Below, in pieces: positions 635 through 51,411 of a DNA stretch of 64,000 nucleotides. The notes under the pieces are model-generated. The model had not been told where the DNA came from. It worked only from the letters and a program-made list of their open reading frames with translations, and ran no database searches. The stretch is taken from positions 1 to 64,000 of IMG/VR virus record IMGVR_UViG_3300032315_001186, one strand, 5' to 3'. This DNA comes from a virus. A program made the translations under genes and the position numbers. Within the stretch, counting starts at the first letter, position 1. Every line of letters starts with the position of its first letter.

Positions 635-1888
635 ATGAAAATATTCATTCAAATTGCGTCATATCGAGATCCTGAGTTAAAAAAAACAATCTTGAGTTGT
701 TTAGAAAATGCTGATAAACCTGAAAATTTAGTTTTTGGAATTGCTCGTCAATTTCATCCTGAGGACAAGTTTGACGACTTGACAGAATACATGACCGATG
801 AAAGATTTAGGATTTTAAACATCCCTTATACCGAGTCAAAAGGAGCATGTTGGGCTAGAAACCAAATTCAACAATTATACAATAAAGAACAGTATACAAT
901 GCAGTTAGATTCACATATGAGGTTTGCACCTCATTGGGATACTGAAATGATTGCAATGGTCAAACAATTACAGAAAAAAGGTTATAAGAAACCATTGCTT
1001 ACTGGTTATGTCTCTTCCTTTGATCCTGACAATGATCCTGCGGCGAGAATACAAGAACCATGGAGAATGGTTTTTGATCGATTTATACCTGAAGGTGCCG
1101 TATTTTTCTTACCTGAAACGATACCAAATTGGCAATCAATGACAGAACCTGTTACTGCTAGATTTTATTCAGCACACTACGCTTTTACATTGGGTAAGTT
1201 TTGTAAAGAAGTTCAACATAATCCAGAATACTATTTTCACGGAGAAGAAATTTCTATAGCCGCTAGAGCTTATACTTGGGGATACGACTTATTCCATCCA
1301 CATAAAGTTCTTATTTGGCATGAGTATACTAGAAAAGGTAGAACCAAACAATGGGATGATGATAAACATTGGGTTGACAAAAATAATGTGTCTCATTTAA
1401 CGAACAGAAAATTGTTTGGTATGGATGGTTTAACCCAAGAGGGTCACGAAGGTAAATATGGGTTTGGTAAAGTCAGATCACTTAGAGATTATGAGAAATA
1501 TTCGGGACTACTTTTTGAAAAAAGAGCCGTTCAACAATACACACTAGATAAACATTATCCACCAAATCCTTATAACTATTCTTCTGAAGAAGAATGGAAA
1601 TCCGACTTTGCTATGATTTTTAAACATTGTATTGATATTGGGTATTCACAAGTACCTGAAAAAGATTATGATTTTTGGGTTGTAGCTTTTCACGATGAAA
1701 CAGATGAGACAATCTTCAGAAAAGATGCTGATAAATCTGAAATAGCAAGAATGATGAATGACCCTGATGGATATTGTAAAGTGTGGCGAGAGTTTCAAAC
1801 AATACATAAACCAAAATACTGGGTAGTTTGGCCACACTCCGAATCCAAAGGTTGGTGTGATAGAATTACTGGAAATTTATCATTTTAA
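635..1888 (+). CDS. GlcNAc-type glycosyltransferase (GT60-like)
   Basis: 417 residues. The N-terminus reads I-F-I-Q-I-A-S-Y-R-D-P-E-L, followed by F-G-I-x-x-Q. These are hallmarks of the GlcNAc (GT60) family, whose founding members are Skp1 hydroxyproline N-acetylglucosaminyltransferases. A metal-binding Asp-x-His motif (Q-L-D-S-H-M-R-F, about residues 90-97) and the later F-H-G-E-E-I motif fit a GT-A fold. It probably transfers a sugar from a UDP-sugar to a phage or host protein or glycan. It is the first gene of a four-gene cluster (635-5197) and directly follows the gene for a Thr/Pro-rich protein, the sort of acceptor that O-glycosyltransferases use. The acceptor is inference; the family call is solid. 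Confidence 0.8.
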   Translation: MKIFIQIASYRDPELKKTILSCLENADKPENLVFGIARQFHPEDKFDDLTEYMTDERFRILNIPYTESKGACWARNQIQQLYNKEQYTMQLDSHMRFAPHWDTEMIAMVKQLQKKGYKKPLLTGYVSSFDPDNDPAARIQEPWRMVFDRFIPEGAVFFLPETIPNWQSMTEPVTARFYSAHYAFTLGKFCKEVQHNPEYYFHGEEISIAARAYTWGYDLFHPHKVLIWHEYTRKGRTKQWDDDKHWVDKNNVSHLTNRKLFGMDGLTQEGHEGKYGFGKVRSLRDYEKYSGLLFEKRAVQQYTLDKHYPPNPYNYSSEEEWKSDFAMIFKHCIDIGYSQVPEKDYDFWVVAFHDETDETIFRKDADKSEIARMMNDPDGYCKVWREFQTIHKPKYWVVWPHSESKGWCDRITGNLSF

Positions 1889-1889
1889 A

Positions 1890-2642
1890 ATGATATTAGA
1901 TTTTGAATCTATTCCGAAATTTGTAGTAAATTTGGATAGGAGACCTGATAGATTAGAACATATTACAAATGAACTAAATTATATCGGTTGGAAATGGGAA
2001 AGATTTTCAGGAATTGATTTGAATTCTTATATGGGAATAACAAAATCAACATTATCAATTATTGACATAGCAAAAGAAAGAAAATATCCAAGAGTAATGA
2101 TTATTGAGGATGATTCTTGTTTTATGCCTTATTCCAAAAGTTTACTAAACGAACTAGAACGTAACTACACAAATTTAGATTTTGGGATTTTTAATTTATC
2201 ACCAACATTAAACAGACCTGTCAAGAGATATAAAGATAGTGAATTGTTATTGGATTTAACAACTTTACCACCGGCAAGTCCCGATGCTAGAGGAATTTAC
2301 GCAGCAAATATGATTATCTACGATGAATCAATTTACGATAAAATGTTCGAAATCGTTTTGACGGCATTCACTAACAGTGAAAATTATTTTTTTGCTTTGG
2401 ACGATTTTACATTCCAACATGTAATGTGTTGTTACCAAAGTTATTCACCAATAATTCCAATAGCGCCACAAATGCATGGAATTTCAGATATATCTGATGG
2501 TTATTACAACAATTGGTATTTACAAACTTATAATTGGAATGCTCACAGTGAAATTAAAATTCCGAATGAATTTATGGATTGGGGGGTAGTTCAAGAAATG
2601 AAAAAAAATAAAGAACACAAACAATTTTATTATGTCAGTTAA
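1890..2642 (+). CDS. Glycosyltransferase, GT25-like
   Basis: About 250 residues from the ATG at 1890, two bases after the stop of the previous gene. A GTG at 1857 is in frame but would overlap the upstream gene, so the ATG is preferred. The opening F-V-V-N-L-D-R-R-P-D-R-L matches family 25 glycosyltransferases (LPS galactosyltransferases and procollagen hydroxylysine galactosyltransferases). It is followed by I-x-I-I-E-D-D (about residues 70-76), the expected acidic metal-binding motif. It overlaps the next gene by 11 bases, implying translational coupling. It likely adds a hexose to a glycan or protein acceptor; the substrate cannot be read from sequence. Confidence 0.75.
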   Translation: MILDFESIPKFVVNLDRRPDRLEHITNELNYIGWKWERFSGIDLNSYMGITKSTLSIIDIAKERKYPRVMIIEDDSCFMPYSKSLLNELERNYTNLDFGIFNLSPTLNRPVKRYKDSELLLDLTTLPPASPDARGIYAANMIIYDESIYDKMFEIVLTAFTNSENYFFALDDFTFQHVMCCYQSYSPIIPIAPQMHGISDISDGYYNNWYLQTYNWNAHSEIKIPNEFMDWGVVQEMKKNKEHKQFYYVS

Positions 2643-3534
2643 ATTTATTACTTGTATTTTCAGTGACTTAAATGGAACTGAACTAGGTGGACGACCGAGT
2701 AGAGGTGGTCATTATCGATATAGTTTATTATCACATTTACAAATGTCAGATGCTGATTTTTTGTGTTATACTTCAGAAAGAGAACTTAAAGATCTCGAAA
2801 ATTTTTTCTATATTGAAAACAAAGTGGACCCAAAAAAATTAGAGTTAAAAATTTTTGATCTTCAGACCACTAAATTTCAAAATTTGATCTCTGAATATAA
2901 AGATGTTGAAGGAACAAAAAGAGGGGATAGATGCGTAGAAATTCAATACTCAAAGTTTCATTGGTGGTGGAATGAAGATAAATCGTATGATTTCTACTAT
3001 TGGATTGATGCTGGTCTATCCCATTGTGGTATAATACCGAACAAATATCTTGTAGATGAACATAGTTATAAGAGGTACTTTTATTCTACAATATTTGATA
3101 ATACTTTTTTAAAAAACCTTTGTGATTTCACTAGGGATAAATTTTTTATAATAACAAAAGATAATGTTAAAAATTATTGGTCTGGTACTGTAAATAGAAA
3201 ATGGTATAATGAGTTCTCTATGGATCTTCATGTAATTGGAGGTATGTTTGGGGGGCATAGAGATACTTGGGATAGGGTTGTCAATTTATTTGAAAAATAT
3301 ACCGAAGATATTCTAAAAGAAGATAAAGGGTTGCCTGCGGAAGAAAATGTTATGAGTTTAATGTATTACAATCACAAAGAATTATTCGTGACAAAATATT
3401 TTGAAACATGGTGGCATGAGGACAATTACCATTCGTTTTTCGGAAACCAAACTCAAGATGTAAAAAATAACTATTTTGAAAATACTAAAAGTTTTTACAA
3501 AATTTTAGAAGAATTAAAAAATTATTATGAGTAA
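2632..3534 (+). CDS. HtrL/YibB-like putative glycan-modifying protein
   Basis: 300 residues. The motif Y-Y-W-I-D-A-G-L (about residues 122-129), with an aromatic/charged context before it and a Gly-Gly-Met-Phe-Gly-Gly stretch later (about 203-208), recalls the HtrL/YibB family found in LPS biosynthesis loci. The following gene has the equivalent F-W-I-D-A-G and Gly-Gly-Phe-Phe-Gly-Gly motifs, so the two appear to be diverged paralogues. It overlaps both neighbours by a few bases. The biochemical activity of the family is poorly known; I infer a glycosyltransferase-type role from the cluster. Confidence 0.55.
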   Translation: MSVKFITCIFSDLNGTELGGRPSRGGHYRYSLLSHLQMSDADFLCYTSERELKDLENFFYIENKVDPKKLELKIFDLQTTKFQNLISEYKDVEGTKRGDRCVEIQYSKFHWWWNEDKSYDFYYWIDAGLSHCGIIPNKYLVDEHSYKRYFYSTIFDNTFLKNLCDFTRDKFFIITKDNVKNYWSGTVNRKWYNEFSMDLHVIGGMFGGHRDTWDRVVNLFEKYTEDILKEDKGLPAEENVMSLMYYNHKELFVTKYFETWWHEDNYHSFFGNQTQDVKNNYFENTKSFYKILEELKNYYE

Positions 3535-5197
3535 CACAACACTAGTAACAGGATTATGGAATATAAACAGAGAAAGTCTAAAAGAAGGATGGTCTAGAAG
3601 TTTTGACCACTATCTTTCGAAACTAGAACAACTATTATCAATTGAAGAAAACCTTATCATTTTCGGGGAAAAGGAACTAGAAGATTGGGTTTTAACCAAA
3701 AGGGATAGATCGAAAACTCAATTTATTGTAAGGTCTCAAGATTGGTTCAAAAATGAATTTTTTGATAAGATTCAAATTATTAGAAAAAATCCAAATTGGT
3801 ATAATCAATCAGGTTGGTTACCTGAATCTACACAAGCTCGTCTTGAAATGTATAACCCATTGGTAATGTCCAAAGTTTTTTTATTGAATGATGCTCGAAT
3901 AATGGACAGATTTAATTCAACAAATCTATTTTGGATAGACGCAGGTATAACTAATACAGTACACCCAGGTTATTTTACTCACGACAAAGTTTTAACAAAG
4001 CTAGAAAAGTTAAAAAACATAACTTTTGTCGCATTTCCATACGAAGCGAATAATGAAATTCACGGATTTGACTATTCTGAAATGTGTCGTATGACCAACA
4101 AAAAAATTGATAAAGTATGTCGTGGTGGGTTTTTTGGTGGCCCCAAAGAAAAAATAGAAAGTTTCAATTCTCTTTATTACCATCTTATGTCTGATACTTT
4201 GTCTAAGGGATATATGGGTACTGAAGAATCACTTTTTACACTTTTAACTTATATGCATCCAGAAAGTTTCCACTATTTCGAAATAGAATCTAATGGATTA
4301 ATATCTAAGTTTTTTGAAGATGTTAAAAATGATCAACACAAAATAAAAAGTGAAAGTGAAATTTTAATTTCAGGAAATGATCTAGACGTTAATAACACCG
4401 CTCTTTATGTGATAACTTTTAATAGTCCAAAACAATTTGAGACCCTCATTGAATCGATGATACAGTATGATGAAGATTTTATTCTTAAACCAAAAAAGTT
4501 TTTATTAGACAATTCAACTGATTTATCAACAACACCAAAATATCAAGCACTATGTGAAGAGTATAATTTTGAACATATTAAAAAAGATAACATCGGTATT
4601 GTTGGGGGCCGTGTATTTGTCGCCGAACATTTTGACGAATCAGGATTAGATTTTTACTACTGGTTCGAAGACGATATGGCATTCTACCCAAAAAAAGGTG
4701 AAGTGTGTAGAAATGGTTTTAATAGATTTGTTCCAAATTTATATTCAAAAACACTAAAAATAATCAAAAATGAAAACTTCGATTTTTTAAAGTTAAGTTT
4801 TACCGAATTTTACGGTTCAAATGATGTACAATTTTCTTGGTATAACATCCCCCAAGATGTTAGAATAAAGTTATTTCCTGAAAAACCATCATTACCTATT
4901 CAAGGTTTAGATCCAAATGCCCCGAGAACAAAATTTAATAACATTAAAATATATCAGGGATTACCTTATGTGGATGGTGAAATCTATTTGTCCAACTGGC
5001 CGATTGTCTTAAGTAAAACAGGTAATTATAAATGTTACTTAGAAACAAAATGGGCATTCCCATTTGAACAAACGTTAATGTCATATTGTTATCAGGAGAC
5101 GGTAAAAGGTAATATTAAACCAGGTATTTTATTATTAACTCCTACTGAGCATAACCGATTTGAATTCTATGATGCAAATTTAAGAAAAGAATGTTAA
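3527..5197 (+). CDS. Two-domain protein: YibB-like N-terminus and GT-A-like glycosyltransferase C-terminus
   Basis: 556 residues. Residues ~1-260 carry the YibB-like motifs F-W-I-D-A-G and G-G-F-F-G-G seen in the preceding gene. From about residue 280 a second domain begins (L-Y-V-I-T-F-N-S-P-K-Q-F) with a downstream W-F-E-D-D-M motif (about residues 382-387). This is the arrangement of family 2-like GT-A glycosyltransferases, where the Glu-Asp-Asp cluster binds metal and UDP-sugar. It looks like a fusion of the upstream paralogue with a glycosyltransferase. Its stop overlaps, tail to tail, the stop of the minus-strand HNH gene, marking the end of the glycan cluster. Confidence 0.6.
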   Translation: MSNTTLVTGLWNINRESLKEGWSRSFDHYLSKLEQLLSIEENLIIFGEKELEDWVLTKRDRSKTQFIVRSQDWFKNEFFDKIQIIRKNPNWYNQSGWLPESTQARLEMYNPLVMSKVFLLNDARIMDRFNSTNLFWIDAGITNTVHPGYFTHDKVLTKLEKLKNITFVAFPYEANNEIHGFDYSEMCRMTNKKIDKVCRGGFFGGPKEKIESFNSLYYHLMSDTLSKGYMGTEESLFTLLTYMHPESFHYFEIESNGLISKFFEDVKNDQHKIKSESEILISGNDLDVNNTALYVITFNSPKQFETLIESMIQYDEDFILKPKKFLLDNSTDLSTTPKYQALCEEYNFEHIKKDNIGIVGGRVFVAEHFDESGLDFYYWFEDDMAFYPKKGEVCRNGFNRFVPNLYSKTLKIIKNENFDFLKLSFTEFYGSNDVQFSWYNIPQDVRIKLFPEKPSLPIQGLDPNAPRTKFNNIKIYQGLPYVDGEIYLSNWPIVLSKTGNYKCYLETKWAFPFEQTLMSYCYQETVKGNIKPGILLLTPTEHNRFEFYDANLRKEC

Positions 5198-10630: not shown

Positions 10631-12751
10631 TTAACAAGGTACACCCCATTGAGGTTTCTCAGCCGTCGTCCAAGATATTGGTGTCCCAGTATCGAAGTTA
10701 GTCGGTTGAACAGGGATTATTTCGACACACCAAGAACTAATATCTTGGTCGAACGAACTTGCGTTTAAGAACATAGAGAACATATTGTTGGCATTAGCGG
10801 TGTCCCAATAGGCTATTGATTGATTGAAATTTGAACAACCTGAAAACGTAGAACTGAAGTTTGATACACTAGTGGTATTCCAAGATACTAATGGTTGGTT
10901 AAATAACGAACATCCCGCAAACGTAGTTCCCAAATTAGTTACGTTAAAACCACTAAAAATAGGCGAATTAAATGATGAACAACTTCTAAATGTGTTTGCT
11001 AATGATACACTACCAATATTCAACATATCCCAGCTAGAAAGATTTTGGTTGAAAGAAATACATCCGAAAAACATACCACTCATAAGTGTACAACTAGACA
11101 TGTCCCAATTCGTCATTGGAGCGTTGAACAATGTACAGTTTCGGAACATTTCTGTCGTGTTAGTTACGGCTGACATTGTCCAACCTGAAAGATAAGGGAA
11201 TAAAGTTATACTATTACAATTCTCGAACCAACTGTCCATACTCGTTACACCTTGTGTGTTTAATGTGTCTGTAAGTGCGTTGAGTGTTAAACCAGTACAG
11301 TTGAAAAATGCTCCAGTAGATTGAAGTGACCCGTAATTAATTTTAAGTTGACCCCATTGACTAATAGTTTTAAAATTATTTTTACTTGTACTATTCCCAC
11401 TAAATGACCATCCCTCAATTGTACCCGTAATAGATACTGTGTAAGTACCTGGAGACACATATGTATGTGAATTTGATGAAAAAAATGTAATTGTGTCGTA
11501 CTGACCATCGCCCCAACTAACGAAGAAATTATAATTACCAAAACTCAACAATGGTAATTGAATCTGTTCATTTGATGTTGTGGTTTCCCATGTACTAACA
11601 AAAGATGTTGGAACTATTGGGTCGGTTTGCGTTGGAGTTGGTGTTGCGTTAAGTGTTTGTGTTGGTGTTAAAGTATTAGTTGGTGTTGGTGTTTGTGTTG
11701 AACTCGAGGTTGGTGTTAAAGTATTAGTTGGAGTCAAAGTACTTGTTGGGGTAACTGTGGGTGTTCGAGTTGGAGTTGTCGTGATAGTTGGAGTCACAGT
11801 TGCTGAGGGTGTATTTGAGGGTGTAACCGCTAGACAGGCACAAGCTGGTTGATTACATATATTTTCAATAATAAGTGCAGGATCAACAATATATGTATCT
11901 GGAGTACCTATAGTACTGTTCCAAAAATAATAACAATCTCCTTCAAATTGAATTCCACTGTCTTGTGGTATTTCTATACTGTTTGAAATTGCAACGATCA
12001 CCGAATTACTTGGAGGACAACAATTAATATATTCAAAAATGTTAAAAACTGTAGTTGGTGTGTTTGTCGGAGTAAGTGTTGGGGATGATGTAACAGAAGG
12101 TGTTAAACCAATAGTTTGTGTTGGTGTGACTGTAGAAGATGGTGTTGGTGTTGGATTATTAGAAGTCGGTGTTACGGTTGGTGTGGGTGTATGTGTTGGG
12201 GTTACCGTACTTGTGGGAGTATTCGATGGGGTTGCAATAATGTTATTACAAGATGTAACACTTGTAATTGTAGACCCTGAATTTTGATAATATAAAACAA
12301 AACCAGTTGTTGAGTTATCTTGTGTTGACGTAAGTGCTCTGTATCTATCCGCTGACACTACAACTATGGGTTCATCAGTTGATACACTAAAAACTTGATC
12401 ACCAGGTCCTAAGGATGAAAGAGGTTTGGTTGTATATCCAATCAACAAAAGTGGTGTAAAGGCTCCAGCCAAACGACTACACGCAACTAATGAACTCGTC
12501 CTTAGAATATTAGAATCTGAGTAGACGTAAAATTTAGTTATCGATGGTGTCGTACTCGGAAAGTCAATTGTGTTAGTGATATTTTGACCTTCACTTGCAG
12601 TAATCAAGGTATTTGTTATGTACCAAACATTGATAGTCTCATTAGGTAAAATTTGTTGATTATCTATTAATAGATTGTCACCACATCTTCGATAAGTAAT
12701 CGAACTGATTTGAGATAGTGTATTTTGTATTGTTGACTTTTTACAGAACAT
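10631..12751 (-). CDS. Mucin-like adhesin: Thr/Pro linkers, PKD domain and BspA-type repeats
   Basis: 706 residues. In order: an N-terminal domain (1-170) ending in S-G-S-T-I-T-S-V-T-S-C that resembles the C-terminal module of the protein at 16935-18854; a Thr/Pro linker (~170-235); a Cys-containing domain (~235-305); a second Thr/Pro linker (~310-375); a PKD-like domain (~385-470: V-S-W-G-D-G ... H-T-Y-x-x-P-G-T-Y-T-V-S-I); and ~7 repeats of about 24 residues with M-F-x-x-C-x-x-F-N-x-x-x-x-x-W-x-x-x (~500-690), the BspA/DUF285 surface-repeat pattern. BspA repeats and PKD domains mediate cell-surface binding, so host recognition or adherence is likely. No signal peptide is evident, so it is probably a virion component. 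The gene lies between a neck-like gene and SOD. Confidence 0.75.
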   Translation of the reverse strand: MFCKKSTIQNTLSQISSITYRRCGDNLLIDNQQILPNETINVWYITNTLITASEGQNITNTIDFPSTTPSITKFYVYSDSNILRTSSLVACSRLAGAFTPLLLIGYTTKPLSSLGPGDQVFSVSTDEPIVVVSADRYRALTSTQDNSTTGFVLYYQNSGSTITSVTSCNNIIATPSNTPTSTVTPTHTPTPTVTPTSNNPTPTPSSTVTPTQTIGLTPSVTSSPTLTPTNTPTTVFNIFEYINCCPPSNSVIVAISNSIEIPQDSGIQFEGDCYYFWNSTIGTPDTYIVDPALIIENICNQPACACLAVTPSNTPSATVTPTITTTPTRTPTVTPTSTLTPTNTLTPTSSSTQTPTPTNTLTPTQTLNATPTPTQTDPIVPTSFVSTWETTTSNEQIQLPLLSFGNYNFFVSWGDGQYDTITFFSSNSHTYVSPGTYTVSITGTIEGWSFSGNSTSKNNFKTISQWGQLKINYGSLQSTGAFFNCTGLTLNALTDTLNTQGVTSMDSWFENCNSITLFPYLSGWTMSAVTNTTEMFRNCTLFNAPMTNWDMSSCTLMSGMFFGCISFNQNLSSWDMLNIGSVSLANTFRSCSSFNSPIFSGFNVTNLGTTFAGCSLFNQPLVSWNTTSVSNFSSTFSGCSNFNQSIAYWDTANANNMFSMFLNASSFDQDISSWCVEIIPVQPTNFDTGTPISWTTAEKPQWGVPC

Positions 12752-12783: not shown

Positions 12784-13512
12784 CTATAATCTATCAGCAA
12801 CATAGTCCCAATCTACAACTCTCCAAAAATTTTTTATGTATTCATCTCTTCTATTTTGATATTTGAGATAGTATGCATGTTCCCATACGTCCAAACCAAG
12901 AAGTGGTTTCCCCCCATCTTTAACAAAACTCATCATCGGATTATCTTGATTTTGTGTTGTTACAATTTTTAATTTACCATTGTCTTTAAGTATTAACCAA
13001 ACCCAACCAGAACCGAATACACTTTTTGCCGCTTCATCAAACTTTTTTTTGAATTCCTTTACAGTACCAAAATTTGAGTTGATTCTTGATTCCAACTTCA
13101 TAGGTATTTTTGGTAAATTTGGTGTTAACATATTCCAAAACAAGGAATGATTGTATGCACCACCAGCATTATCACGAATGAGTTTTTCATTCTCCTTAAC
13201 CGATGAAACAATTTCTTCTAAAGACATAGTTTCATATCGTTTACCTTTTGTTGCTAGATTCAATTTATCAACGTATCCTTTGTAATGTTTCGTATAGTGA
13301 ACATTCATCGTTGTTGGATCGATGAAAGCTTTTAATGATGTAAAAGAATACGGTAGTGGTTCAAAAATAACATTACCGTGTTTGATCTTGGATTTTTTTT
13401 GTTCTTCAATTACCCTTCTACGTTCCTCAATTTTCTGTTCAATTAAATCAATTCTATTTTCCAAATATTTCATACCCACCAAGACTTTAGTGTCTTCAAT
13501 AAGTATTTTCAA
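12784..13512 (-). CDS. Superoxide dismutase, Fe/Mn type, with N-terminal coiled-coil extension
   Basis: 242 residues. Residues ~50-242 are a complete Fe/Mn SOD. Metal ligands are His72 (N-V-H-Y-T-K-H), His122 (Y-N-H-S-L-F-W), Asp208 and His212 (G-L-D-V-W-E-H-A-Y-Y). The N-Q-D-N-P and Y-Q-N-R-R contexts look more Mn- than Fe-type. Residues 1-45 are an extra charged helix, probably coiled coil, absent from ordinary SODs; it may anchor the enzyme to another protein. The ATG overlaps the stop of the helicase gene (ATGA). The enzyme would dismutate superoxide in the infected cell, or in the particle if packaged. Confidence 0.93.
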   Translation of the reverse strand: MKILIEDTKVLVGMKYLENRIDLIEQKIEERRRVIEEQKKSKIKHGNVIFEPLPYSFTSLKAFIDPTTMNVHYTKHYKGYVDKLNLATKGKRYETMSLEEIVSSVKENEKLIRDNAGGAYNHSLFWNMLTPNLPKIPMKLESRINSNFGTVKEFKKKFDEAAKSVFGSGWVWLILKDNGKLKIVTTQNQDNPMMSFVKDGGKPLLGLDVWEHAYYLKYQNRRDEYIKNFWRVVDWDYVADRL

Positions 13513-16373
13513 TTTCTCTTTTCGTTAATAGATTGAAGTATATTTTCAAGAGCATCCCCTTCAAACAACATTGTATCACCCATCACTGTGTTGATAATTC
13601 TTTTTTTCTTATCTAGAATATCATAGATAATTCCTTCAATTGTATTTTCAAATAAAGGATAGTAAACCACAACAGTATTTTTTTGTCCATATCGGTATGC
13701 TCTATCTTCAGCTTGAGAATGATCGGATGGTAAAAATGACAAGTCATTCATAATCACAGTTTCTGCTGCGGTCAAAGTTAAACCAACACCTGCGGCTTTG
13801 ATGTTACCAACAAATACTTTTACTTTATCGTCGGTTTGGAATTTATCCACAGCGTCTTGTCTTTCTCCTTTTGGAGTCGATCCGTCAAGTTTTACCGCGA
13901 CTTTTTTGAAGTGGTTGTAAATTGCATTCAGGGAATCTGTGAAGTTACAAAAAATAATAACTTTTTTATCTTGATCTAAAATGTTTTCACATAATTCTAT
14001 CGTTTGAGCAACCTTTTCGTTTGCAATAATTTGTCTGACTTTTGCGATTTTGGAAAATTGCATAGTAAGAGAATTGGATTCTCCACCTTTGTCGTACCAC
14101 TCGTAATACTCACCCATCACATCTTCATATTCTTTGGATCTTAATCTCATATAAACTGGTGTGATAATTTTTTCAGGTAGATCCAAAACATCATTTTTCA
14201 AACGACGTAGGACAAATGGCTTGGTTCTTTCATAGAGTTCTTCAAGATTAGAAGCCCCACTTACATTCCAAATTTTTCGATTACCAGCACGGAATTGATA
14301 TCCGTTACAATATCTTTTTACATAGGCCATCCAATTTTGCGCGACATTACAATCAACAAGATTGAGTAAATTAAAATAATTAATAGGACGAGACGTGACA
14401 GGTGTTCCAGTCAACAACCAAACTTTGTCTGTTATCCTAGCGATATCATTTACAAGTTTTGTTCTTTGTGCTTGTGTATTACAAATTGCGTGAGCCTCAT
14501 CAACAATAATTAAATCAAAACCCGAATTACGTATAATTGATTCTACGTCTTTTTCCAGACTATGAAAATTTTTAAGGATATCGTAGTTGATAATAACATA
14601 ATCAGCGTCTTCCCATTTTTTACCCTCAACAATTGAAATGGTCTTATCAGAATAATTTTCAATTTCTCTTTTCCAATTTATTTTAAGAGATGCTGGACAA
14701 ATTACAAGTATTTTTTTGGATTGTGACTCTACTGAAGCCACAACAGCAGAAGTTGTGTTGTGTGTAACAATACAATGTTCTGCTACATATAATTTGTCTG
14801 GAGCATCTACAGAAATACATGTACAATAATCTTCACCTTGTTTTTCAATTTTACTGATGTATCTACCCGTTTGATATTTTTGTGGTTCGTTGTATCTCTC
14901 TGATTTCCTTTTTAATCTGAACGGGTTCATACCCTTAGGTAGTTTTACATTCACTCTATATGATGGTCTACATTCAACCCGTCTACCATCTTTTTTATAA
15001 AAACTTCTCCTCCATTTTTTTCTTACAATCCCACCTAGTGTGTGAACAATCTCACATAGATCATCACAAAGTTTTTCAGATACTGTTGAGAATTCGGTTC
15101 CACAAAACTTTCCATTTTCTGATAACATACAATGTCCATCGGTATCCATTAGCCCTTGGAGTATAGCCAAACGATCCTCCACAGAAGAATATTTGTAGAT
15201 GTCAGGTATAAATTTATTATGAGAACGAGTATTAGCTAGTGATAAATTTTTTAGGACATCACCAATAAAAATAGAACAATTACGTTTATTACCTTCTGAT
15301 CTATTCTCATTAATAGAAATGTTATTGAATAATTCATCAAAATCATCTTTATGTATTTGAAATCTACATAAACTATTAATGATGTGACCATCACCCAACA
15401 TTAAACCCAAAAGGTATGGTTCTATTGGTAATTGATGATTATTTTGAAATTCAATTGGTTTCACAATTGGTATTTGCCATTTGTTTGCACCATTTGATCC
15501 TTTATAGTGAGTATTGATTGAGTATGTTCTGAAATGATTGTATCCACGTCCTTTGTCCTCTATTGTCTGATTTTCGTACATTTGTTTTGTAGACAATATC
15601 AAAGATTTTTTAAGTCTACTATTGTTTGAATTTTTTCCGTGATTTGAGGAAGATACTGACCAGAGATGTTCATCGTCCGTAAATATTGAGTATCCATCGT
15701 TGAACGTAATTTTATACGTTTCTTTTTTTCCCTGTGGGAAAACCCCAATTACATTATATGGTTTTCCATCCGAACCGATTACTTTATCTCCAATAACAAT
15801 TTCACCCATTTTCTTAGTACCAGTTGGTGTGTAAATCAAAGTATTATTGATCATTGCTTTACCAAGTCCCAAATCATCAGCTAAAATGTATTTTTTATTC
15901 TCACATAAAGTTTTAACCGCTTCTTTTTGGTGTTCGAGTAAAGGTCTATAACTGTATTTTTCAAAATCTATTTCTACATTTTTGACTTTGTTGTCTTTAA
16001 TGATCGCAACTTTTGGAATCCAAAAATCGTGAAGTCCTTGTTTCTCAAAATAATAACCCCAAATATGATAAGCGGTTTCTTTTTCAACCAAGAGTTTTTC
16101 AATCCAAATTTGATTTGGAACTTCTGTAAACATTTTTTCATCCGCAATTTTGTTTGCAAAATATGAATCTAATGTTACCCACTTTTTAGCAACCTTTGGT
16201 TCTTTTTTGTGAAACTTAATTATGTACTCCGTTTGAGTGGCATTTGGAAAAAACTTAGAGTTCGTCAATTTTTTTTGACGAAGTTTTAAAATATAGTTAT
16301 TCGCCCCCGAATAATTATCCAATATATCGAGCGCTTGATTCTCCCTTGCGTTTAGTTGATTTTCCAAAAACAA
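13509..16373 (-). CDS. SNF2/UvsW-like superfamily 2 helicase interrupted by an intein
   Basis: 954 residues including a 367-residue intein (residues 173-539). The extein of ~587 residues has the SF2 motifs: I (D-D-L-G-L-G-K | T), II (V-D-E-A-H, D-E-x-H type), III (L-L-T-G-T-P-V) and VI (Q-A-E-D-R-A-Y-R-Y-G-Q). The D-E-A-H, T-G-T-P and R-x-x-R-x-G-Q set fits SNF2-type ATPases. A DNA translocase or branch-migration role in replication/recombination is likely. The start is TTG (16373, or the next TTG at 16367); no ATG is available. The gene is followed by SOD with a 4-base overlap. Confidence 0.88.
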   Translation of the reverse strand: MFLENQLNARENQALDILDNYSGANNYILKLRQKKLTNSKFFPNATQTEYIIKFHKKEPKVAKKWVTLDSYFANKIADEKMFTEVPNQIWIEKLLVEKETAYHIWGYYFEKQGLHDFWIPKVAIIKDNKVKNVEIDFEKYSYRPLLEHQKEAVKTLCENKKYILADDLGLGKAMINNTLIYTPTGTKKMGEIVIGDKVIGSDGKPYNVIGVFPQGKKETYKITFNDGYSIFTDDEHLWSVSSSNHGKNSNNSRLKKSLILSTKQMYENQTIEDKGRGYNHFRTYSINTHYKGSNGANKWQIPIVKPIEFQNNHQLPIEPYLLGLMLGDGHIINSLCRFQIHKDDFDELFNNISINENRSEGNKRNCSIFIGDVLKNLSLANTRSHNKFIPDIYKYSSVEDRLAILQGLMDTDGHCMLSENGKFCGTEFSTVSEKLCDDLCEIVHTLGGIVRKKWRRSFYKKDGRRVECRPSYRVNVKLPKGMNPFRLKRKSERYNEPQKYQTGRYISKIEKQGEDYCTCISVDAPDKLYVAEHCIVTHNTTSAVVASVESQSKKILVICPASLKINWKREIENYSDKTISIVEGKKWEDADYVIINYDILKNFHSLEKDVESIIRNSGFDLIIVDEAHAICNTQAQRTKLVNDIARITDKVWLLTGTPVTSRPINYFNLLNLVDCNVAQNWMAYVKRYCNGYQFRAGNRKIWNVSGASNLEELYERTKPFVLRRLKNDVLDLPEKIITPVYMRLRSKEYEDVMGEYYEWYDKGGESNSLTMQFSKIAKVRQIIANEKVAQTIELCENILDQDKKVIIFCNFTDSLNAIYNHFKKVAVKLDGSTPKGERQDAVDKFQTDDKVKVFVGNIKAAGVGLTLTAAETVIMNDLSFLPSDHSQAEDRAYRYGQKNTVVVYYPLFENTIEGIIYDILDKKKRIINTVMGDTMLFEGDALENILQSINEKRN
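14757..15857 (-). other. Intein with LAGLIDADG endonuclease in the helicase P-loop
   Basis: Codons for residues 173-539 of the helicase. It lies directly after the Walker A lysine (G-L-G-K) and before T-T-S-A. The first residue is Ala, not Cys or Ser; it then reads M-I-N-N-T-L-I-Y-T-P-T-G, a standard block A. Block B has D-D-E-H-L-W. Two dodecapeptides are visible: Y-L-L-G-L-M-L-G-D-G and L-A-I-L-Q-G-L-M-D-T-D-G. The C-terminus is V-T-H-N followed by Thr. Ala1 inteins are known (class 2, KlbA type) and skip the first acyl shift. Splicing restores the P-loop G-L-G-K-T. Confidence 0.9.
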
Positions 16374-16412: not shown

Positions 16413-16928
16413 ATGACACAAAATCAAGTTCCAATAACAAGGTTAGGTAAGTTTTTCGGTCAAGAAGATTTTGATTTGGATATAAATATGGGTAGAGAAT
16501 GGCTCGATGGTGATATGAATTTCACCATTGTTGTATATCGTGTAAACAAACAAAAAACAAATCAAGATGATGTGTATGGTGAGGCTTTACCTCAGTCCAT
16601 AGAGTTCTTACCACCAATTTCTGTAAATGCGTATTTACAAATTCTACAACCAGACAATTCGTTTTTGGGTAATTCTAAAATACTACAAAATGAACCAGGT
16701 AATATAAAATTTGCAATCTACCAAAAAGATTTGGACGATTTACAAATATCTATCAGTTTGGGTGACTACATAGGTTATTGGATCACAGAAAATCAAGTGA
16801 GATATTATTCTGTTGTTGATAAAGGTATTCCAAACTACGACAACAAACATACCTATGGTGGGTATAAACCTTTCTATGTAAGTTACATTGCAACCCCAGT
16901 GACTGCTAATGAATTTATGGGGATTTAA
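16413..16928 (+). CDS. Neck protein, T4 gp14-like (tentative)
   Basis: 171 residues. The pattern D-V-Y-G-E-A followed by I-S-V-N-A-Y-L-Q-I, then L-G-D-Y-I-G-Y-W and a terminal aromatic strand (K-P-F-Y-V-S-Y-I), resembles the layout of gp14-type neck proteins in T4-like phages (Y-G-E, beta strands, 'P-x-x-G-D-x-I-Y/W', 'F-Y'). Its position supports this: it lies between a gp13-like gene and a gp15-like gene. The sequence similarity itself is weak. It is followed 6 bases later by the protease gene. Confidence 0.45.
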   Translation: MTQNQVPITRLGKFFGQEDFDLDINMGREWLDGDMNFTIVVYRVNKQKTNQDDVYGEALPQSIEFLPPISVNAYLQILQPDNSFLGNSKILQNEPGNIKFAIYQKDLDDLQISISLGDYIGYWITENQVRYYSVVDKGIPNYDNKHTYGGYKPFYVSYIATPVTANEFMGI

Positions 16929-16934
16929 GTTTAA

Positions 16935-18854
16935 ATGATGAAAACTCAAATTATTAGAGAATTAATTCAGAAATTAAGATCTGAAAACAAAGACGATAAT
17001 GTTACTGGAATATCATATAGTAATAAGATTATCAATGGGAAATTTACGAACCACTTAAGTGTTACATTTTATGTTCAACGTAAAATTAATAAAGATGAGA
17101 TAAATCCTCAATTTTTAATACCTGATAAAATTGAATATTCAGGATATGAATTTTTAACGGATGTTAGTACGGTTGAAGTTGATTATTCTTCAGCTGAATG
17201 TCCCGATAGTTTTTATGATTGGCAAACTAATCCAATCCCATTCGAGAAAGTATCTAAACTCTCGGGTGGTACTAATATTTTATTTTGTACATTAGGGGGG
17301 TTAGTCATTGATAACACCACCAACTCTCTCGCGGGATTGACTAATGCTCATTGTGGTTGGTGGAAAAACATAAATTCAGATGTAAATCCTTTTTTTCCTT
17401 TGAATTATGGAACAACACAAATATATTACAATGGTACAAACAACGATGCTCAAATTGTTGGTATCCAAAAAAGATATAGTCCAGGTTTTAGACCACCAAC
17501 AACAACTAAAGTTGATGCTGCTTTATTAACAGTACCATATGATTTAATAGATTTTACAACATCTTATCGACAGGTAGGACTTACAGGTTGGACACAACCT
17601 ATGGATTTTGCCACAACAGAAGAAATAGATAATTTGATTTTTACAAAAGGAAATTTATACAGTACAGGAATAACCACAGGTGCTAAGGGTGAGGGTGAAA
17701 TGAAGTTGGTGTGTGTAGCAACACACTTTTATCATGAATTCCGAGGTATTCCACAAGTTGAGGATATGGTTGTTTATGTTGCTAGTGCTACAACAACACC
17801 CAATGGTACCGCGTGTCCTTACCCGATTTATTATGGTGATAGTGGATCAATTGTTTCGGCAGACATAAATGGTGTACGTAAAATAATTGGATTGGGAAGT
17901 TTGATGGTTACATATCGTACACCTTCAGGTGATCCTCTTTATGGTGCTGGGGTAGTAAGAATTGATAACATTGTCGAAAGTCTTGATATTTCACCTTGGA
18001 CAGGTCAAACAGATATTTCTTTTTCGAGCACTGCGAACACAGAAACGTATTATACAGAATCAAATTACAATAACAAAACCATACAATTATCTGGTAAAAC
18101 TTTTTGGCAATGGGGACAAATTGTAACCACACCCACACCATCTGTCACTGTCACCCCAACTTTATCCTATAATTCAACACCATATCCAACAGTTACTCCG
18201 ACAATCACACAAACAGTCACTCGTACCCCAGATCCCAATTGTTCACCATTTACGAATGTTATTTGTTATACTTATCGAATTGATTTTCTACCCCTTGGAA
18301 TTTCAAATTCCTTTTATCCCACACTATCTATTTGGGTAACATACAAAGATTGTTTTGACCCAAATATTATTAAGTTGGTAGAAGTCCCATTAAATATTCC
18401 AAAATTTATATGTTCATCAGAAGTACCAATTGTGGTTAATAGTAAAGAAAATACAGCTACAGATGGATGTCCTGACATTGAGGACTTCACATCAATCACA
18501 AAACTTGAGGTTTGTGGTTCACATTGTCCACCACCTAATCCAACCCCATCCGCAACTCCTACAAATTATTTATTGTATAGTAATTTACTACCAGCACAAG
18601 GATCTACGACTTTTGAATTAGCATGTTCTAGACTCACCTCGGAAACTGCAATTTTATGGGGTTATAGTACAAAACCCTTGAGTGAGATGGGGTTAGCGGA
18701 TGTGATTTATGATATAAACACAAATCTACCAAAACAAACATTTGGTCTTAGATTTAGAGCATTTAGTGCGACCCCAGATGTCTCGACTCAAAAATATGTT
18801 ATTTATTGGCAGAATAGTGGTAGTTCGATAACATCTGTTGAACCTTGTATTTAA
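16935..18854 (+). CDS. Trypsin-like (Nal1-type) serine protease with Thr/Pro linkers and C-terminal Cys module
   Basis: 639 residues. Residues 20-85 resemble the prodomain-like N-terminus of bacterial Nal1-type proteases (V-T-G-I-S, F-Y-V-Q-R-K, I-P-D-K-I, T-D-V). The chymotrypsin-fold core has a full triad: His139 (T-N-A-H-C), Asp194 (V-D-A-A-L-L) and Ser303 (G-D-S-G-S). After ~390 come a Thr/Pro linker, a Cys-containing domain (~440-530), a short Thr/Pro linker, and a final ~95-residue module with A-C-S-R-L and S-G-S-S-I-T-S-V-E-P-C that resembles the N-terminus of the adhesin at 10631. There is no signal peptide. It may be a virion protease for host surface proteins or maturation; it sits inside the neck/tail gene set. 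Confidence 0.8.
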   Translation: MMKTQIIRELIQKLRSENKDDNVTGISYSNKIINGKFTNHLSVTFYVQRKINKDEINPQFLIPDKIEYSGYEFLTDVSTVEVDYSSAECPDSFYDWQTNPIPFEKVSKLSGGTNILFCTLGGLVIDNTTNSLAGLTNAHCGWWKNINSDVNPFFPLNYGTTQIYYNGTNNDAQIVGIQKRYSPGFRPPTTTKVDAALLTVPYDLIDFTTSYRQVGLTGWTQPMDFATTEEIDNLIFTKGNLYSTGITTGAKGEGEMKLVCVATHFYHEFRGIPQVEDMVVYVASATTTPNGTACPYPIYYGDSGSIVSADINGVRKIIGLGSLMVTYRTPSGDPLYGAGVVRIDNIVESLDISPWTGQTDISFSSTANTETYYTESNYNNKTIQLSGKTFWQWGQIVTTPTPSVTVTPTLSYNSTPYPTVTPTITQTVTRTPDPNCSPFTNVICYTYRIDFLPLGISNSFYPTLSIWVTYKDCFDPNIIKLVEVPLNIPKFICSSEVPIVVNSKENTATDGCPDIEDFTSITKLEVCGSHCPPPNPTPSATPTNYLLYSNLLPAQGSTTFELACSRLTSETAILWGYSTKPLSEMGLADVIYDINTNLPKQTFGLRFRAFSATPDVSTQKYVIYWQNSGSSITSVEPCI

Positions 18855-18921: not shown

Positions 18922-20460
18922 ATGGCTCTACCTAAAAAAGTAATACCAAATATTAATTTAGTCCCTCCAAAAATTTTACTTGAGAGGAGAGAACAATTAT
19001 TACAGGATATTACAGAAGACGGAACATATCTTCCAAAGAATTTGGGTTATGCCGAAATGGATAGAGGATTTTTAGATTTTGTTAAAAATGAACTTAAAAC
19101 AGTTGTTGAGGGAAAAGTAATTCCAACAATTGACATTCTTATAACAACACAAAACTGGGCACAATTTACTCAAACTTGGTCTTTTCAAGATTTGAACGGC
19201 AACACCGAACCACCCTTTATTACGGTGGTGAGAGTTCCTGAAGTAAAATATGGTACAAATCCTGCGACTCTTTATAATATCCCAAACCAAAAAGAATTTT
19301 TCTATGCAGCTGTACCTACTTGGAATGGTAATGTAAAGGGGCTTGACATTTATAAAATACCACAACCAGTACCTGTTGATATCTCGTTTAGTGTAAAAAT
19401 TGTTTGTAATCGAATGAGAGAACTCAACGAGTTTAACAAAAATGTTCTTCAGACATTCGCATCACGTCAAGCGTACACTAAAGTTAATGGGCACTTTATC
19501 CCAATTGTAAACACAAACATAAGTGATGAATCTGTCACACAGGTTGATAAAAGAAGATTTTACATCCAAAATTATGATTTCACACTTTTGGGATTCCTAT
19601 TAGATCAAGATAAGTTCGAGGTAGCACCTGCGGTCTCTAGAGTTCTTAATGTTTTTGAGACCAATATGAAACCCATAAATCGTAAAAGAAAAAGATTCCC
19701 TGTGAATGAAGGTGTCTTTGATCTTACGATTCAAGCGGTAAGAAACTCCCCTGTTATTAGGACAATCAGTGTTGATTATACAGGTACTTTTACAATTTTA
19801 TCAACCCAAAATGTGAGTACCTATGATTTGTTTGTTAGGTTAAACACCAGTACAGAGTTTGACTATTATGGGACAAATGTTGTCAATTTTGAGGTGAATA
19901 CTGGTGACCAGTTACGATTTGAAATTACTCAAGAAAATGCCGACCCAACTTCTACCATAACATATGGGGTATCTTTTTTAGGTTCACCACAAAATTTAAC
20001 TTTCGATTTACCAACCCCGTCAATTACCCCAACAAACACAATAACCCCTTCTATTACACCAACGAGTAGTTTGACACCAACACCATCAATAACCCCAACA
20101 AAGTCAACAACACCAACGAATAGTTTGACACCAACACCTACTATCACTCCGACAAAAACTTCTAGTTTATGTCAATCTTTGGAATTAATTTGTAATAATT
20201 ATGAAATAACCAATACAACGTCTTCAGCACAACCACTTTTATTAGTATATTCAGCATGTACAAATCAACCGACAGTATCATCAATTACTTTGAGTTCTGG
20301 ACAAACCACTAACTTTTGTGCAGTAGCATACACAATAGCTTATTCTGGTGGTCATATAATTAATCAAACGGGAACTTGTGGAAAATTCTGTTCTTCATTT
20401 ACAAACATTTTCCTACATATACCAAATTTGACTCCAACACCTACTCCAAGTCTATCGTAA
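18922..20460 (+). CDS. Tail sheath stabiliser / tail terminator, gp15-like, with Thr/Pro-rich C-terminus
   Basis: 512 residues. Residues ~60-245 resemble T4 gp15: V-D-I-S-F-S-V-K-I-V-C-N-R, then N-x-F-N-K-x-V-L-Q-T-F, N-G-H-F-I-P-I, S-D-E-S-V and R-R-F-Y-I-Q-N-Y-D-F-T-L-L-G. T4 gp15 caps the tail tube and locks the last sheath ring. An extra beta-like domain (~250-350) follows, then a Thr/Pro linker (~355-415), a Cys-rich domain (~415-500) and a Thr/Pro end. The gene lies just upstream of the sheath gene, as expected for gp15. The mucin-like tail would project from the head-tail joint. Confidence 0.65.
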   Translation: MALPKKVIPNINLVPPKILLERREQLLQDITEDGTYLPKNLGYAEMDRGFLDFVKNELKTVVEGKVIPTIDILITTQNWAQFTQTWSFQDLNGNTEPPFITVVRVPEVKYGTNPATLYNIPNQKEFFYAAVPTWNGNVKGLDIYKIPQPVPVDISFSVKIVCNRMRELNEFNKNVLQTFASRQAYTKVNGHFIPIVNTNISDESVTQVDKRRFYIQNYDFTLLGFLLDQDKFEVAPAVSRVLNVFETNMKPINRKRKRFPVNEGVFDLTIQAVRNSPVIRTISVDYTGTFTILSTQNVSTYDLFVRLNTSTEFDYYGTNVVNFEVNTGDQLRFEITQENADPTSTITYGVSFLGSPQNLTFDLPTPSITPTNTITPSITPTSSLTPTPSITPTKSTTPTNSLTPTPTITPTKTSSLCQSLELICNNYEITNTTSSAQPLLLVYSACTNQPTVSSITLSSGQTTNFCAVAYTIAYSGGHIINQTGTCGKFCSSFTNIFLHIPNLTPTPTPSLS

Positions 20461-20737: not shown

Positions 20738-23700
20738 ATGGCGACTACCAATAAAATATTCGTATCCCCTGGTGTTTACACATCGGAAAGGGATTTAAGT
20801 TTTGTAGCACAAAGTGTAGGTGTTACAACCCTAGGGTTGGTTGGCGAAACCTTAACAGGTCCCGCTTTCGAACCTATTTTCATAACTAATTACGACGAAT
20901 TTGAGGCGTTTTTCGGTGGGACTATTCCCGAAAAATTTGTCAACACTCAGATACCTAAGTATGAATTAGCTTATATCGCTAAATCTTATCTACAACAATC
21001 CAATCAGTTGTTTGTAACACGTGTTTTGGGTCTTTCAGGTTATGATGCGGGGCCAGGTTGGTCTTTATCAATTCAAGCAAATGTGGACGGAACCACTGTA
21101 GGTTTGAATGGTTCTTCTTCCAACTATACAATTAGTTTCGTTGCCACTACTGGTGGTACCGTCACTCTCACACCTGTAGGTACGACATTAGTTGGTACAA
21201 ACTTGAATAACCCTTTTACTCTTTTAAATGGAAATCAATCATCTTTCAATACTGAATTGAGTACTCAACTTACAGGTATTGTAAATGCTTCTGGTAATAC
21301 TAGTGGTACTTCAGTTTATTATTTTGGTACAATTACAGACGCGGCTTACAGTGCTTTGAGTTCTTATACAGGTGAAACCAATGTGTTTGGTATGTCTGGT
21401 CTTACTAACTCTACCGCAGAATACACTTCTCCAAACAATGATGCTTGGTATTACTCTAATTTTAACGAAAGTACCAATGGTAATTATACAGGATACTCTT
21501 TCTTTAGTGTGGTAACTTCATTAACAGATGCGGGTGGTGGAACTTATAATGGAACTATATCTGGTACTGTATTTAATTTTTCAGGTGTTTCGTATTTGGA
21601 TTATAACAATGTGGTAGTAGCTACTTTACGTTCAAGAGGTATTTCAAATTATGGTTCTGGTGGAACAGGTCCAAGATACCAAGTAACTGGACTTACAAGT
21701 GTTGTATTAAACACTACGGGGTCATACTCTGCTATTACAGAAAATCCATTCTCTCGTTTTGCTATTTCAGGTGTTACAGATGGCGCCGCTTCTCCTGAGA
21801 ATTTCTCTTTCGTTGTTTCCTTATCACAAACAGACCAAAACTACCTACCATCTGTGTTGGGTCGATCTAACTTTGGAAAAAGTAGAACTGAGGTTCCAAT
21901 AATGGTCGAGGAAGTTTACCCAACCTTATTAACGTATGGGTATAATAAAGGTTTTATCAGGGGTCTTAAAACTGACTTGATTGCCACCCCCGGTTTAAGG
22001 TATAATCCTACTACTGATTCTATTGCCAATTATTTGGAAAGATATAGGGCTGCTGAATCTCCTTGGGTTGTATCACAACTTCGTGGTAGTACCGTTGAAA
22101 GATTATTTAAAATTTTAACGATATCTGATGGTGATTCGGCCAACACTCAAATCAAAATTTCTATACAAAATATTTCATTTAATAATGTGTCCTTTGATTT
22201 AGGTGTTCGTGACTTTTTCGATACAGATACCAATCCAGTTTATTTGGAGAAGTTTACTAATTGTAATATGGACCCTTCATCGAATAATTACATCGGTGTT
22301 AAGATCGGTACTTCTGACGGAGAATATGCTTTGAATTCTAAATATATTATGTTAGAATTGGATTCGGATGCACCTATCGATTCATTACCTTGTGGTTTCG
22401 AAGGATATGTTATGAGGGAGTATCCCAATGCAATCCCTCCTTTCCCAATTTACAAAACCGCTTACTATTTCCCTGGTGAAGTTATTTACAACCCCCCATT
22501 TGGAACTACGACAGGACCTGTTTCTTCTCGTGGTATGTCAAATGCGGTTCAGAGTTCAGGAGACAGAGTAAGAACAACCTTCTTAGGTATCTCAAGTCAA
22601 ATTGGTTATGATGTTGATTTTTATCAGTATAAAGGAGCTCAGTATCCCGTAAGTATTTGTGATTCTGAAGTGGCTGAACCATGGGATTACATTACTCAAG
22701 GTTTCCATATGGACTCAGGGGCTACTGTTGTTCAAATTGCAGTAGGACCAACTTCGGGAACTCCTGCATTCCAGTGTGGTGATGCATCATTCCAATCGGA
22801 TCCCGAAACTTCGGAAAACCCTTACTATCAGATTCAAGCTCGTAAGTTTACGTTCTTAGTTCAGAAAGGTTTTGATGGTTGGGATGTTTATCGTGAATAT
22901 CGTACAAATGGAGATAGTTTTATACTCGGTGGTGCTGGATATCAGAGAGGTGCTTGTTCAACAACAAGATATCCGAATGCCACAGGGTGGGGAGCATTTA
23001 AACCTATTAGTGTTTCAAACTTCACAGATTACACTAATACTGACTACTATGCATATTTGTTGGGTATTAGTACATTCAATAACCCTGAATCCACAAACAT
23101 CAATGTGTTCGCAACCCCTGGTATTGACTATGTTAATAACTCAAATCTTGTAGAAGACGCAATTTCGATGATTACTTATCAGAGGGCTGACTCGATTTAT
23201 ATCGTCACCACACCTGATTGTAATGTGTTTTTACCAACTAGTAACGATAATTTCATTTATCCGACCGAAGCGGTTGATAACTTGGATAATACAGGTATCG
23301 ATTCTAACTATACGGCTACCTACTATCCTTGGATACTTGTAAGGGATACTGTAAATAACACTCAAATTTATATTCCACCAACCAACGAGGTTTGTAGAAA
23401 CTTAGCATTAACTGATAACATCGCATTCCCTTGGTTTGCAACTGCGGGTTACACACGTGGTTTGGTCAATGCTATCAAAGCTCGTAAGAAGTTGACACAA
23501 GAAGATAGAGACACTTTGTATCAAGGTCGTATCAATCCTATCGCAACTTTCTCGGATGTTGGTACTGTTATTTGGGGTAATAAAACACTTCAAATATCCG
23601 ACACAGCATTGAACAGAATTAATGTGAGAAGATTGTTACTACAAGCTAGAAAACTTATTTCTGCTGTTGCAGTAAGATTGTTGTTCGAACAAAACGACGC

Positions 23701-23923
23701 TAAGGTTCGTCAGGATTTCTTGGATAGTGTTAATCCGATCTTGGATGCTATCAGAAGAGATAGAGGTCTTTATGACTTCAGAGTAACCGTAAGTAGCTCT
23801 CCTGAGGATTTGGATAGAAACACCCTTTCAGGAAAAATTTATTTAAAACCAACTAAGGCACTTGAATTTATTGATATTGAGTTCTTGATAACTCCAACTG
23901 GAGCATCATTTGAAAATATCTAA
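20738..23923 (+). CDS. Tail sheath protein (gp18-like), enlarged
   Basis: 1061 residues against 659 in T4 gp18. The N-terminus F-V-S-P-G-V-Y-T-S-E-R-D is the classic sheath start, and Y-I-A-K-S-Y-L-Q-Q-S-N-Q-L-F-V-T-R-V follows at ~85-102. The C-terminal domain shows the conserved end F-R-V-T-V-S-S-S-P-E-D-L-D-R-N, then K-I-Y-L-K-P-T-K-A-L-E-F-I-D-I-E-F. Extra length sits in a Gly/Ser/Thr-rich region (~105-370) between the two, probably surface-exposed domains. Forms the contractile sheath around the gp19 tube. Confidence 0.93.
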   Translation: MATTNKIFVSPGVYTSERDLSFVAQSVGVTTLGLVGETLTGPAFEPIFITNYDEFEAFFGGTIPEKFVNTQIPKYELAYIAKSYLQQSNQLFVTRVLGLSGYDAGPGWSLSIQANVDGTTVGLNGSSSNYTISFVATTGGTVTLTPVGTTLVGTNLNNPFTLLNGNQSSFNTELSTQLTGIVNASGNTSGTSVYYFGTITDAAYSALSSYTGETNVFGMSGLTNSTAEYTSPNNDAWYYSNFNESTNGNYTGYSFFSVVTSLTDAGGGTYNGTISGTVFNFSGVSYLDYNNVVVATLRSRGISNYGSGGTGPRYQVTGLTSVVLNTTGSYSAITENPFSRFAISGVTDGAASPENFSFVVSLSQTDQNYLPSVLGRSNFGKSRTEVPIMVEEVYPTLLTYGYNKGFIRGLKTDLIATPGLRYNPTTDSIANYLERYRAAESPWVVSQLRGSTVERLFKILTISDGDSANTQIKISIQNISFNNVSFDLGVRDFFDTDTNPVYLEKFTNCNMDPSSNNYIGVKIGTSDGEYALNSKYIMLELDSDAPIDSLPCGFEGYVMREYPNAIPPFPIYKTAYYFPGEVIYNPPFGTTTGPVSSRGMSNAVQSSGDRVRTTFLGISSQIGYDVDFYQYKGAQYPVSICDSEVAEPWDYITQGFHMDSGATVVQIAVGPTSGTPAFQCGDASFQSDPETSENPYYQIQARKFTFLVQKGFDGWDVYREYRTNGDSFILGGAGYQRGACSTTRYPNATGWGAFKPISVSNFTDYTNTDYYAYLLGISTFNNPESTNINVFATPGIDYVNNSNLVEDAISMITYQRADSIYIVTTPDCNVFLPTSNDNFIYPTEAVDNLDNTGIDSNYTATYYPWILVRDTVNNTQIYIPPTNEVCRNLALTDNIAFPWFATAGYTRGLVNAIKARKKLTQEDRDTLYQGRINPIATFSDVGTVIWGNKTLQISDTALNRINVRRLLLQARKLISAVAVRLLFEQNDAKVRQDFLDSVNPILDAIRRDRGLYDFRVTVSSSPEDLDRNTLSGKIYLKPTKALEFIDIEFLITPTGASFENI

Positions 23924-26502: not shown

Positions 26503-26991
26503 ATGGCAGATTTACTGATGAAAATGCCGGTTCCATACGAACCGAAAAGAGTAAATAGATTTATATTAAGATTTGACTCTACCCTTGGGATTAACGAATG
26601 GTTTGTTGAATCGACGGATAGACCTTCGATTGATATCACATCTGTGGCAATCCCTTTCCTAAACACAGAAACCTATGTAGCTGGTAGGTTTAAATGGAAC
26701 GCTATGAACGTAGTATTCAGAGACCCAATTGGACCTTCGGCAACACAAGCCCTTATGGAGTGGGTACGATTACATGCGGAATCTGTCACAGGTCGTATGG
26801 GATACGCCGCAGGATATAAAAAGAATGTGGATCTAGAAATGTTAGACCCAACGGGTGTAGTGGTTGAAAAATGGATATTGGACTCTTGTATGATTACGAA
26901 GTCAGCTTGGAATCAAGCACAATATGGTCAAGATGGTTTGGCAACATTGTCTGTCACTTTACAACCTGATCGTTGTATTCTTGTTTACTAA
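26503..26991 (+). CDS. Tail tube protein (gp19-like)
   Basis: 162 residues, matching T4 gp19 (163) in length. It has the family pattern N-R-F-I-L-R-F near the start, F-K-W-N-A-M-N-V-V-F-R-D-P-I, W-V-R-L-H-A-E, then L-D-P-T-G-V-V-V-E-K-W-I-L-D and a final strand ending Q-P-D-R-C. It stacks as hexamers to form the inner tube through which DNA passes. A strong terminator follows. Confidence 0.92.
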   Translation: MADLLMKMPVPYEPKRVNRFILRFDSTLGINEWFVESTDRPSIDITSVAIPFLNTETYVAGRFKWNAMNVVFRDPIGPSATQALMEWVRLHAESVTGRMGYAAGYKKNVDLEMLDPTGVVVEKWILDSCMITKSAWNQAQYGQDGLATLSVTLQPDRCILVY

Positions 26992-51402: not shown

Positions 51403-51411
51403 TTTAAAACT

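Follow-up and report, generated by a model that had tools for sequence, protein, structure and literature searches.

The tail-gene block of the uncultured, contractile-tailed phage analysed here encodes an optional protease, residues 1–395 of which are predicted, from the sequence and from a structural model, to form a full-length serine protease of the NAL1 type with a trypsin fold. The enzyme is tentatively regarded, at close to an even chance, as one that is mounted on the virion and cleaves host surface proteins; we infer both its location and its substrate. The window, that is, the whole stretch of DNA analysed (64 kb out of a 73-kb virus record derived from a metagenome), carries the gene as a single open reading frame (ORF) with the following parts:

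16935–18854 (+): NAL1-like protease ORF, 639 aa, recognised by its phrog_20754 "protease" match (5e-10) and by NAL1 matches
16935–18119 (+): protease domain, residues 1–395, with a NAL1_N-like part (~23–85) and a trypsin fold (~107–357), from the AlphaFold model and VIA
17349–17351 (+): codon of the predicted catalytic His139 (LTNAHC), pairing with the NAL1 His
17514–17516 (+): codon of the predicted catalytic Asp194 (KVDAAL), pairing with the NAL1 Asp ("raDgaF")
17841–17843 (+): codon of the predicted nucleophile Ser303 (GDSGS)
18126–18236 (+): Thr/Pro-rich linker 1, residues 398–434, from sequence composition
18237–18530 (+): module M2, residues 435–532, with seven Cys and M2 matches in the L005 and L007 orthologues
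18564–18848 (+): module M1, residues 544–638, with two Cys, from an iterated HMM search

Fold and catalytic triad

Structure comparison: The AlphaFold model of the protease domain was computed with a 30-member alignment as input (pLDDT 85.3, pTM 0.89). Its best matches among PDB structures were all rice NAL1 (7y77, 8pn2 and 8has; VIA Z 28.8 and rmsd 3.7 for 7y77, with 314 residues aligned at 18 % identity), and because the alignment spans model residues 2–362 it takes in the N-terminal domain. Rice NAL1 shares this domain, the trypsin fold and the order and context of the triad with the window protein, but is a plant intracellular regulator without Thr/Pro stalk, Cys modules or phage context. 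The next-best matches, Streptomyces griseus protease B and alpha-lytic protease (S1 family; VIA Z ~17, residues 107–357), have the trypsin-fold core in common with the window protein, whereas they are secreted bacterial enzymes with cleaved pro-regions and without a NAL1_N domain. Among predicted viral proteins the best structural match was A0A7S9XDX3, an uncharacterized protein of 449 aa from the unclassified Virus NIOZ-UU157 (Foldseek E 4e-28, TM 0.77).

Sequence comparison: A PDB sequence search led to NARROW LEAF 1 at 8e-4 with the single sequence and at 4e-9 with the 30-member profile. The phrog_20754 match comprised residues 21–199, and thus only the N-terminal half of a protein that has a stalk and modules in addition. 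Pfam NAL1_N (PF25608) was sub-threshold on the window protein (0.019); of the records of 33 relatives, 25 contain it at E≤0.01 and two above its curated cut-off. Pfam Trypsin_2 (PF13365) gave no match at its curated cut-off or at E≤0.001 in the virus's own record, and weakly matched one of six A2 members (0.08). The Nal1-like N-terminus proposed in the first-pass annotation is borne out by the structural alignment from residue 2 and by the NAL1_N matches in the relatives.

Triad conservation: A profile search across IMG/VR yielded 176 confirmed viral loci, which is a minimum for the family, and 80 of them were retained. Triad residues were assigned by sequence alignment with the NAL1 residues, not by geometry in the model, and were counted in 62 non-redundant homologous domains on other viral contigs. 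His was present in 60/62, Asp in 59/62 and Ser in 60/62, with all three together in 59/62; one homologue has Glu in the Asp column, possibly through an alignment shift. All three residues were invariant in the 30-sequence alignment, and conservation at an identity of mostly ~30–40 % excludes a chance match. The complete His139/Asp194/Ser303 triad, as originally placed, therefore stands. Two of the 62 copies are dead (L020, 10630–11925; L019, 4033–6093) and each adjoins an active copy; clearly dead copies were found only alongside active ones. Contig 3300016472_000307 (L005/L010/L020) carries six NAL1-like ORFs, which flank one gp15-like gene on both sides; one of these is dead, and an 897-aa paralogue additionally has a dead second domain.

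Tail-gene setting, optional presence and variability

Gene order: The protease gene is followed and preceded by these genes:

16413–16928 (+): g171, a conserved gene of the virion block that immediately precedes the protease, 93 % identical in relatives and in conserved order
18922–20460 (+): g512, tail terminator with the T4 gp15 fold in residues 39–234, from Foldseek and VIA
20738–23923 (+): tail sheath (phrog_23, 5e-58; Phage_sheath_1, 1e-7)
26503–26991 (+): tail tube (phrog_4542, 6e-24)

A baseplate hub gene follows sheath and tube. The g512 model, of moderate quality (pLDDT 69), matched the T4 neck–tail complex 9mkb (1e-7) and gp15 4huh (9e-7) by Foldseek and the T4 gp15 fold by VIA (Z 12.5). 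Its beta-sandwich part (residues ~260–352) resembled generic beta-sandwich domains (Z ~8.5) and was set aside as evidence. A lineage-specific, Thr/Pro-linked Cys module begins at residue ~364; the gp15-like proteins of most relatives stop at ~350 aa and are without this extension. The order helicase(−)/g171/gp15-like/sheath/g274/tube is shared by many viral contigs, and protease homologues of ~30 % identity lie directly 5′ of the sheath gene in five further loci (L028, L029 and L042–L044). The neck and tail gene setting described at first reading was thus recovered. No clear Shine–Dalgarno-like sequence was seen ahead of the starts at 16413, 16935, 18922 and 20738.

Optional presence: In a set of 63 distinct gp15-like loci, the g171–gp15 interval could be read in 54 and contained a protease in 3; the gp15–sheath interval could be read in 60 and contained one in a single locus. 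At the empty site in L093, L099 and L103 the g171 stop codon abuts the gp15 start, and the gp15-like N-part of L093 is 93 % identical. As judged from these sequences, the protease is optional cargo at the g171/gp15-like junction, and its absence from close relatives makes a core part in tail assembly improbable for this phage group. Relatives without the protease mostly also have no Thr/Pro proteins at that position.

Hypervariability: The window was compared with the two relatives nearest to it. In identity, the surrounding genes gave 93–94 % (g171), 90 % (gp15 N-part), 90–91 % (superoxide dismutase) and 87 % (helicase); the protease domain gave 58 % and the protease C-terminus 40–53 %. The dN/dS ratio was 0.24–0.28 for the protease, whereas g171 and the gp15 N-part both gave 0.04. 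These pairwise ratios are all below 1 and the synonymous sites almost saturated, so that no positive selection is claimed. Within the protease, residues 137–200, 265–300 and 321–345 drop to 39–54 % identity, whereas residues 301–320 remain at 85–95 %. The two relatives are 98–99 % identical to each other in g171 and the gp15 N-part, yet their proteases are mosaic, with residues 201–264 identical and residues 137–200, 265–300 and 321–345 at 45–54 %. By homology with the trypsin fold, the variable blocks probably include active-site loops and the specificity-pocket wall.

Other genes: An Fe/Mn superoxide dismutase gene (12784–13512, −; PF02777, 1.8e-41; ~90 % identical in relatives) adjoins the helicase gene (13509–16373, −), in which an intein-like insertion of ~370 aa, missing from the 585-aa allele in L005, breaks the Walker A motif (GLGK/A...HN/T). 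For the ribonucleotide reductase large subunit (50212–54288, +) there are seemingly two ORFs, between which a natural split intein is divided: "...YVDQ/CFVPDTKVKTNLGY..." is the end of ORF1, and ORF2 opens with a C-intein ending "...DISLVHN/GGG". A second intein-like insert starts inside ORF2 ("CIAGDQRVVTSLGY").

Thr/Pro stalks, Cys modules and neighbouring genes

Modules: The Thr/Pro linkers and Cys-containing modules reported for the ORF are present: in addition to linker 1, a second, short linker (residues ~533–543) lies between M2 and M1, and in the C-terminal part the richest run of 30 residues is 70 % T/S/P. Neither an N-terminal hydrophobic stretch nor a signal peptide or transmembrane segment was detected in a sequence scan of the 639-aa protein, and as the hydrophobic stretch is absent Sec export is not expected. 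The window contains one further copy of M1:

12248–12538 (−): second M1 copy (E 3e-32), inside the Thr/Pro-rich, DUF285 adhesin-like protein encoded at 10631–12751 (−)

The latter protein contains both Thr/Pro linkers and DUF285 repeats (1.1e-43). M1 was also found twice at the C-terminus of the L020 gp15-like protein by the iterated HMM search, which agrees with the earlier suggestion that a Cys module is common to other phage proteins. A relative's gp15-like protein (L007, 7953–10472) ends its Thr/Pro stalk with a Fib_succ_major (FISUMP) domain, which is another exchangeable tip. The lack of a clear Shine–Dalgarno signal and the FISUMP and DUF285 domains are hints of a Bacteroidota host. A glycosyltransferase-like gene cluster, including an HtrL_YibB family protein, occupies 635–5197 (+); as a speculation, its products might modify Thr/Pro stalks.

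Neighbours: A Thr/Pro-rich gene adjoins the protease in 29 of 37 distinct loci and lies immediately upstream of it in 25, vs 7.6 % of other ORFs (p = 1e-16, a nominal value, as the 37 loci are partly related); in 9/37 the protease itself is within a Thr/Pro-rich ORF. Nearby genes in other protease loci encode tail-fibre, RCC1-repeat and further virion-like proteins. On a 323-kb contig (L054, 3788–7975) the Thr/Pro-rich gene immediately 5′ of the protease has RCC1 repeats (PF00415, 9.5e-21).

Display: The proposal that the protease is displayed on the particle gains indirect support from M1 on tail-terminator and adhesin-like proteins, from the optional and hypervariable nature of the gene and from its large Thr/Pro-rich neighbours. 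Covalent display is not general, since most homologues are stand-alone enzymes of ~420 aa without a stalk.

Role of the enzyme and its family

Proposed mechanism and alternatives: As a virion-mounted enzyme, the protease would be expressed late, together with the tail genes, and its stalk and M1/M2 modules would mount it on the particle near neck or tail; stand-alone homologues would instead attach by binding their Thr/Pro-rich fibre neighbours. The mounted protease would cut host cell-surface proteins at adsorption or penetration, and its specificity loops would diversify, tracking host variation. For the S-layer or gliding proteins suggested at first reading as targets, the analysis yielded no evidence. 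Variable virion cargo is favoured over a core maturation protease because the gene is optional, hypervariable and placed beside genes for Thr/Pro-rich proteins, and because one relative has six copies. The main rival is processing within the phage, in which the protease would cut the adjacent Thr/Pro-rich fibre or adhesin proteins, or itself, during assembly, so that enzyme and substrate co-diversify; we consider this rather unlikely. It draws its strongest argument from the adjoining Thr/Pro-rich ORF (29/37 loci), with the protease immediately downstream in 25/37, and is consistent with the stand-alone form of the majority of homologues and with jumbo-phage peptidases that track virion type and whose presumed substrates are virion proteins (PMC7824862). 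A variable phage fibre with which the enzyme co-varies would, moreover, give a pattern similar to that expected of host-driven loop variation. The fusion of the enzyme to a Thr/Pro-rich ORF in 9/37 loci, which would be odd for a stalk cutter, argues most strongly against processing, as do multiple copies per genome, some of them dead, and relatives that share the neck and tail genes without the enzyme, a weaker point if the fibre is equally optional.

A late, soluble protease that acts inside the cell on host proteins of defence, lysis or takeover, its tail link being genetic only, is improbable in our judgement. The absence of a signal peptide and transmembrane segment would suit such an effector, as would plant NAL1, which works within cells and degrades TOPLESS-type corepressors (PMC12915138); the Thr/Pro stalk and modules common to tail-terminator and adhesin-like proteins, the position beside tail or Thr/Pro-rich genes at most loci and a PADLOC defence-system scan that gave no match speak against it. 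Dead paralogues, the dead second domain of the 897-aa paralogue and the hypervariable loops could also be read as a protease fold that serves mainly as a binding module, an adhesin-like pseudo-enzyme scaffold; with all three catalytic residues in 59/62 homologues and the GDSGS block among the best-conserved parts, this is very improbable.

Other phage proteases: The prohead proteases of the T4 gp21 and phiKZ types are likewise serine proteases of large myophages; they differ in belonging to the prohead serine peptidase superfamily (PMC7824862) and in being conserved core head enzymes instead of optional cargo. A prohead protease homologue was ruled out by the NAL1/trypsin fold and by the distribution of the gene, which is missing in most of the relatives that share the tail genes, and the earlier statement that the usual T4-like prohead protease is unrelated holds in both fold and distribution. 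A "trypsin-like" protease has been reported in the T4-like Sinorhizobium phage phiM9 (PMC10783043). This protein, phiM9_102, has a Trypsin_2 annotation and structural genes nearby, but is 230 aa long, has an N-terminal hydrophobic segment and is encoded on the opposite strand beside the capsid gene; it was rejected as a family member, as the family HMM gave no match.

Distribution and novelty: A tblastn search of 50,697 GenBank phages with three queries returned only a distant relative, a NAL1-like ORF of the 484-kb uncultured phage LR756508 (family HMM E 2e-17), which keeps the His and GDSGS motifs but is 336 aa long, is without Thr/Pro-rich neighbours and has 27 % identity to the consensus. 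In bacterial and archaeal genomes two pattern scans gave no confirmed relative, a pattern-limited result, and the NAL1_N profile matches in Methanosarcina acetivorans; for these two reasons the family may be of cellular origin. In a literature search with subscription papers largely outside its reach, neither a virion-borne NAL1-like protease nor a phage-specific NAL1 branch used as modular, hypervariable and sometimes arrayed tail-block cargo was found. The catalytic family itself is known (NAL1).

Significance: Phage particles that carry enzymes against polysaccharides and peptidoglycan are well known; enzymes on the particle that act on surface proteins of the host are much less well established. 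It is possible, at somewhat less than an even chance, that the large phage-specific NAL1-like branch consists of exchangeable, fast-diversifying enzymes mounted on the virion against host surface proteins, with Thr/Pro stalks in the neck and tail block and as many as six copies, active and dead, arrayed in one genome, and so would be the protein-cutting counterpart of polysaccharide-depolymerase tailspikes. The family combines its at least 176 viral loci with an intact predicted active site, an optional slot among tail genes and a conserved catalytic core surrounded by variable loops. It thereby makes host recognition through protein cleavage on the virion open to direct testing, and it supplies a series of small, naturally diversified proteases for which specificity profiling is possible.
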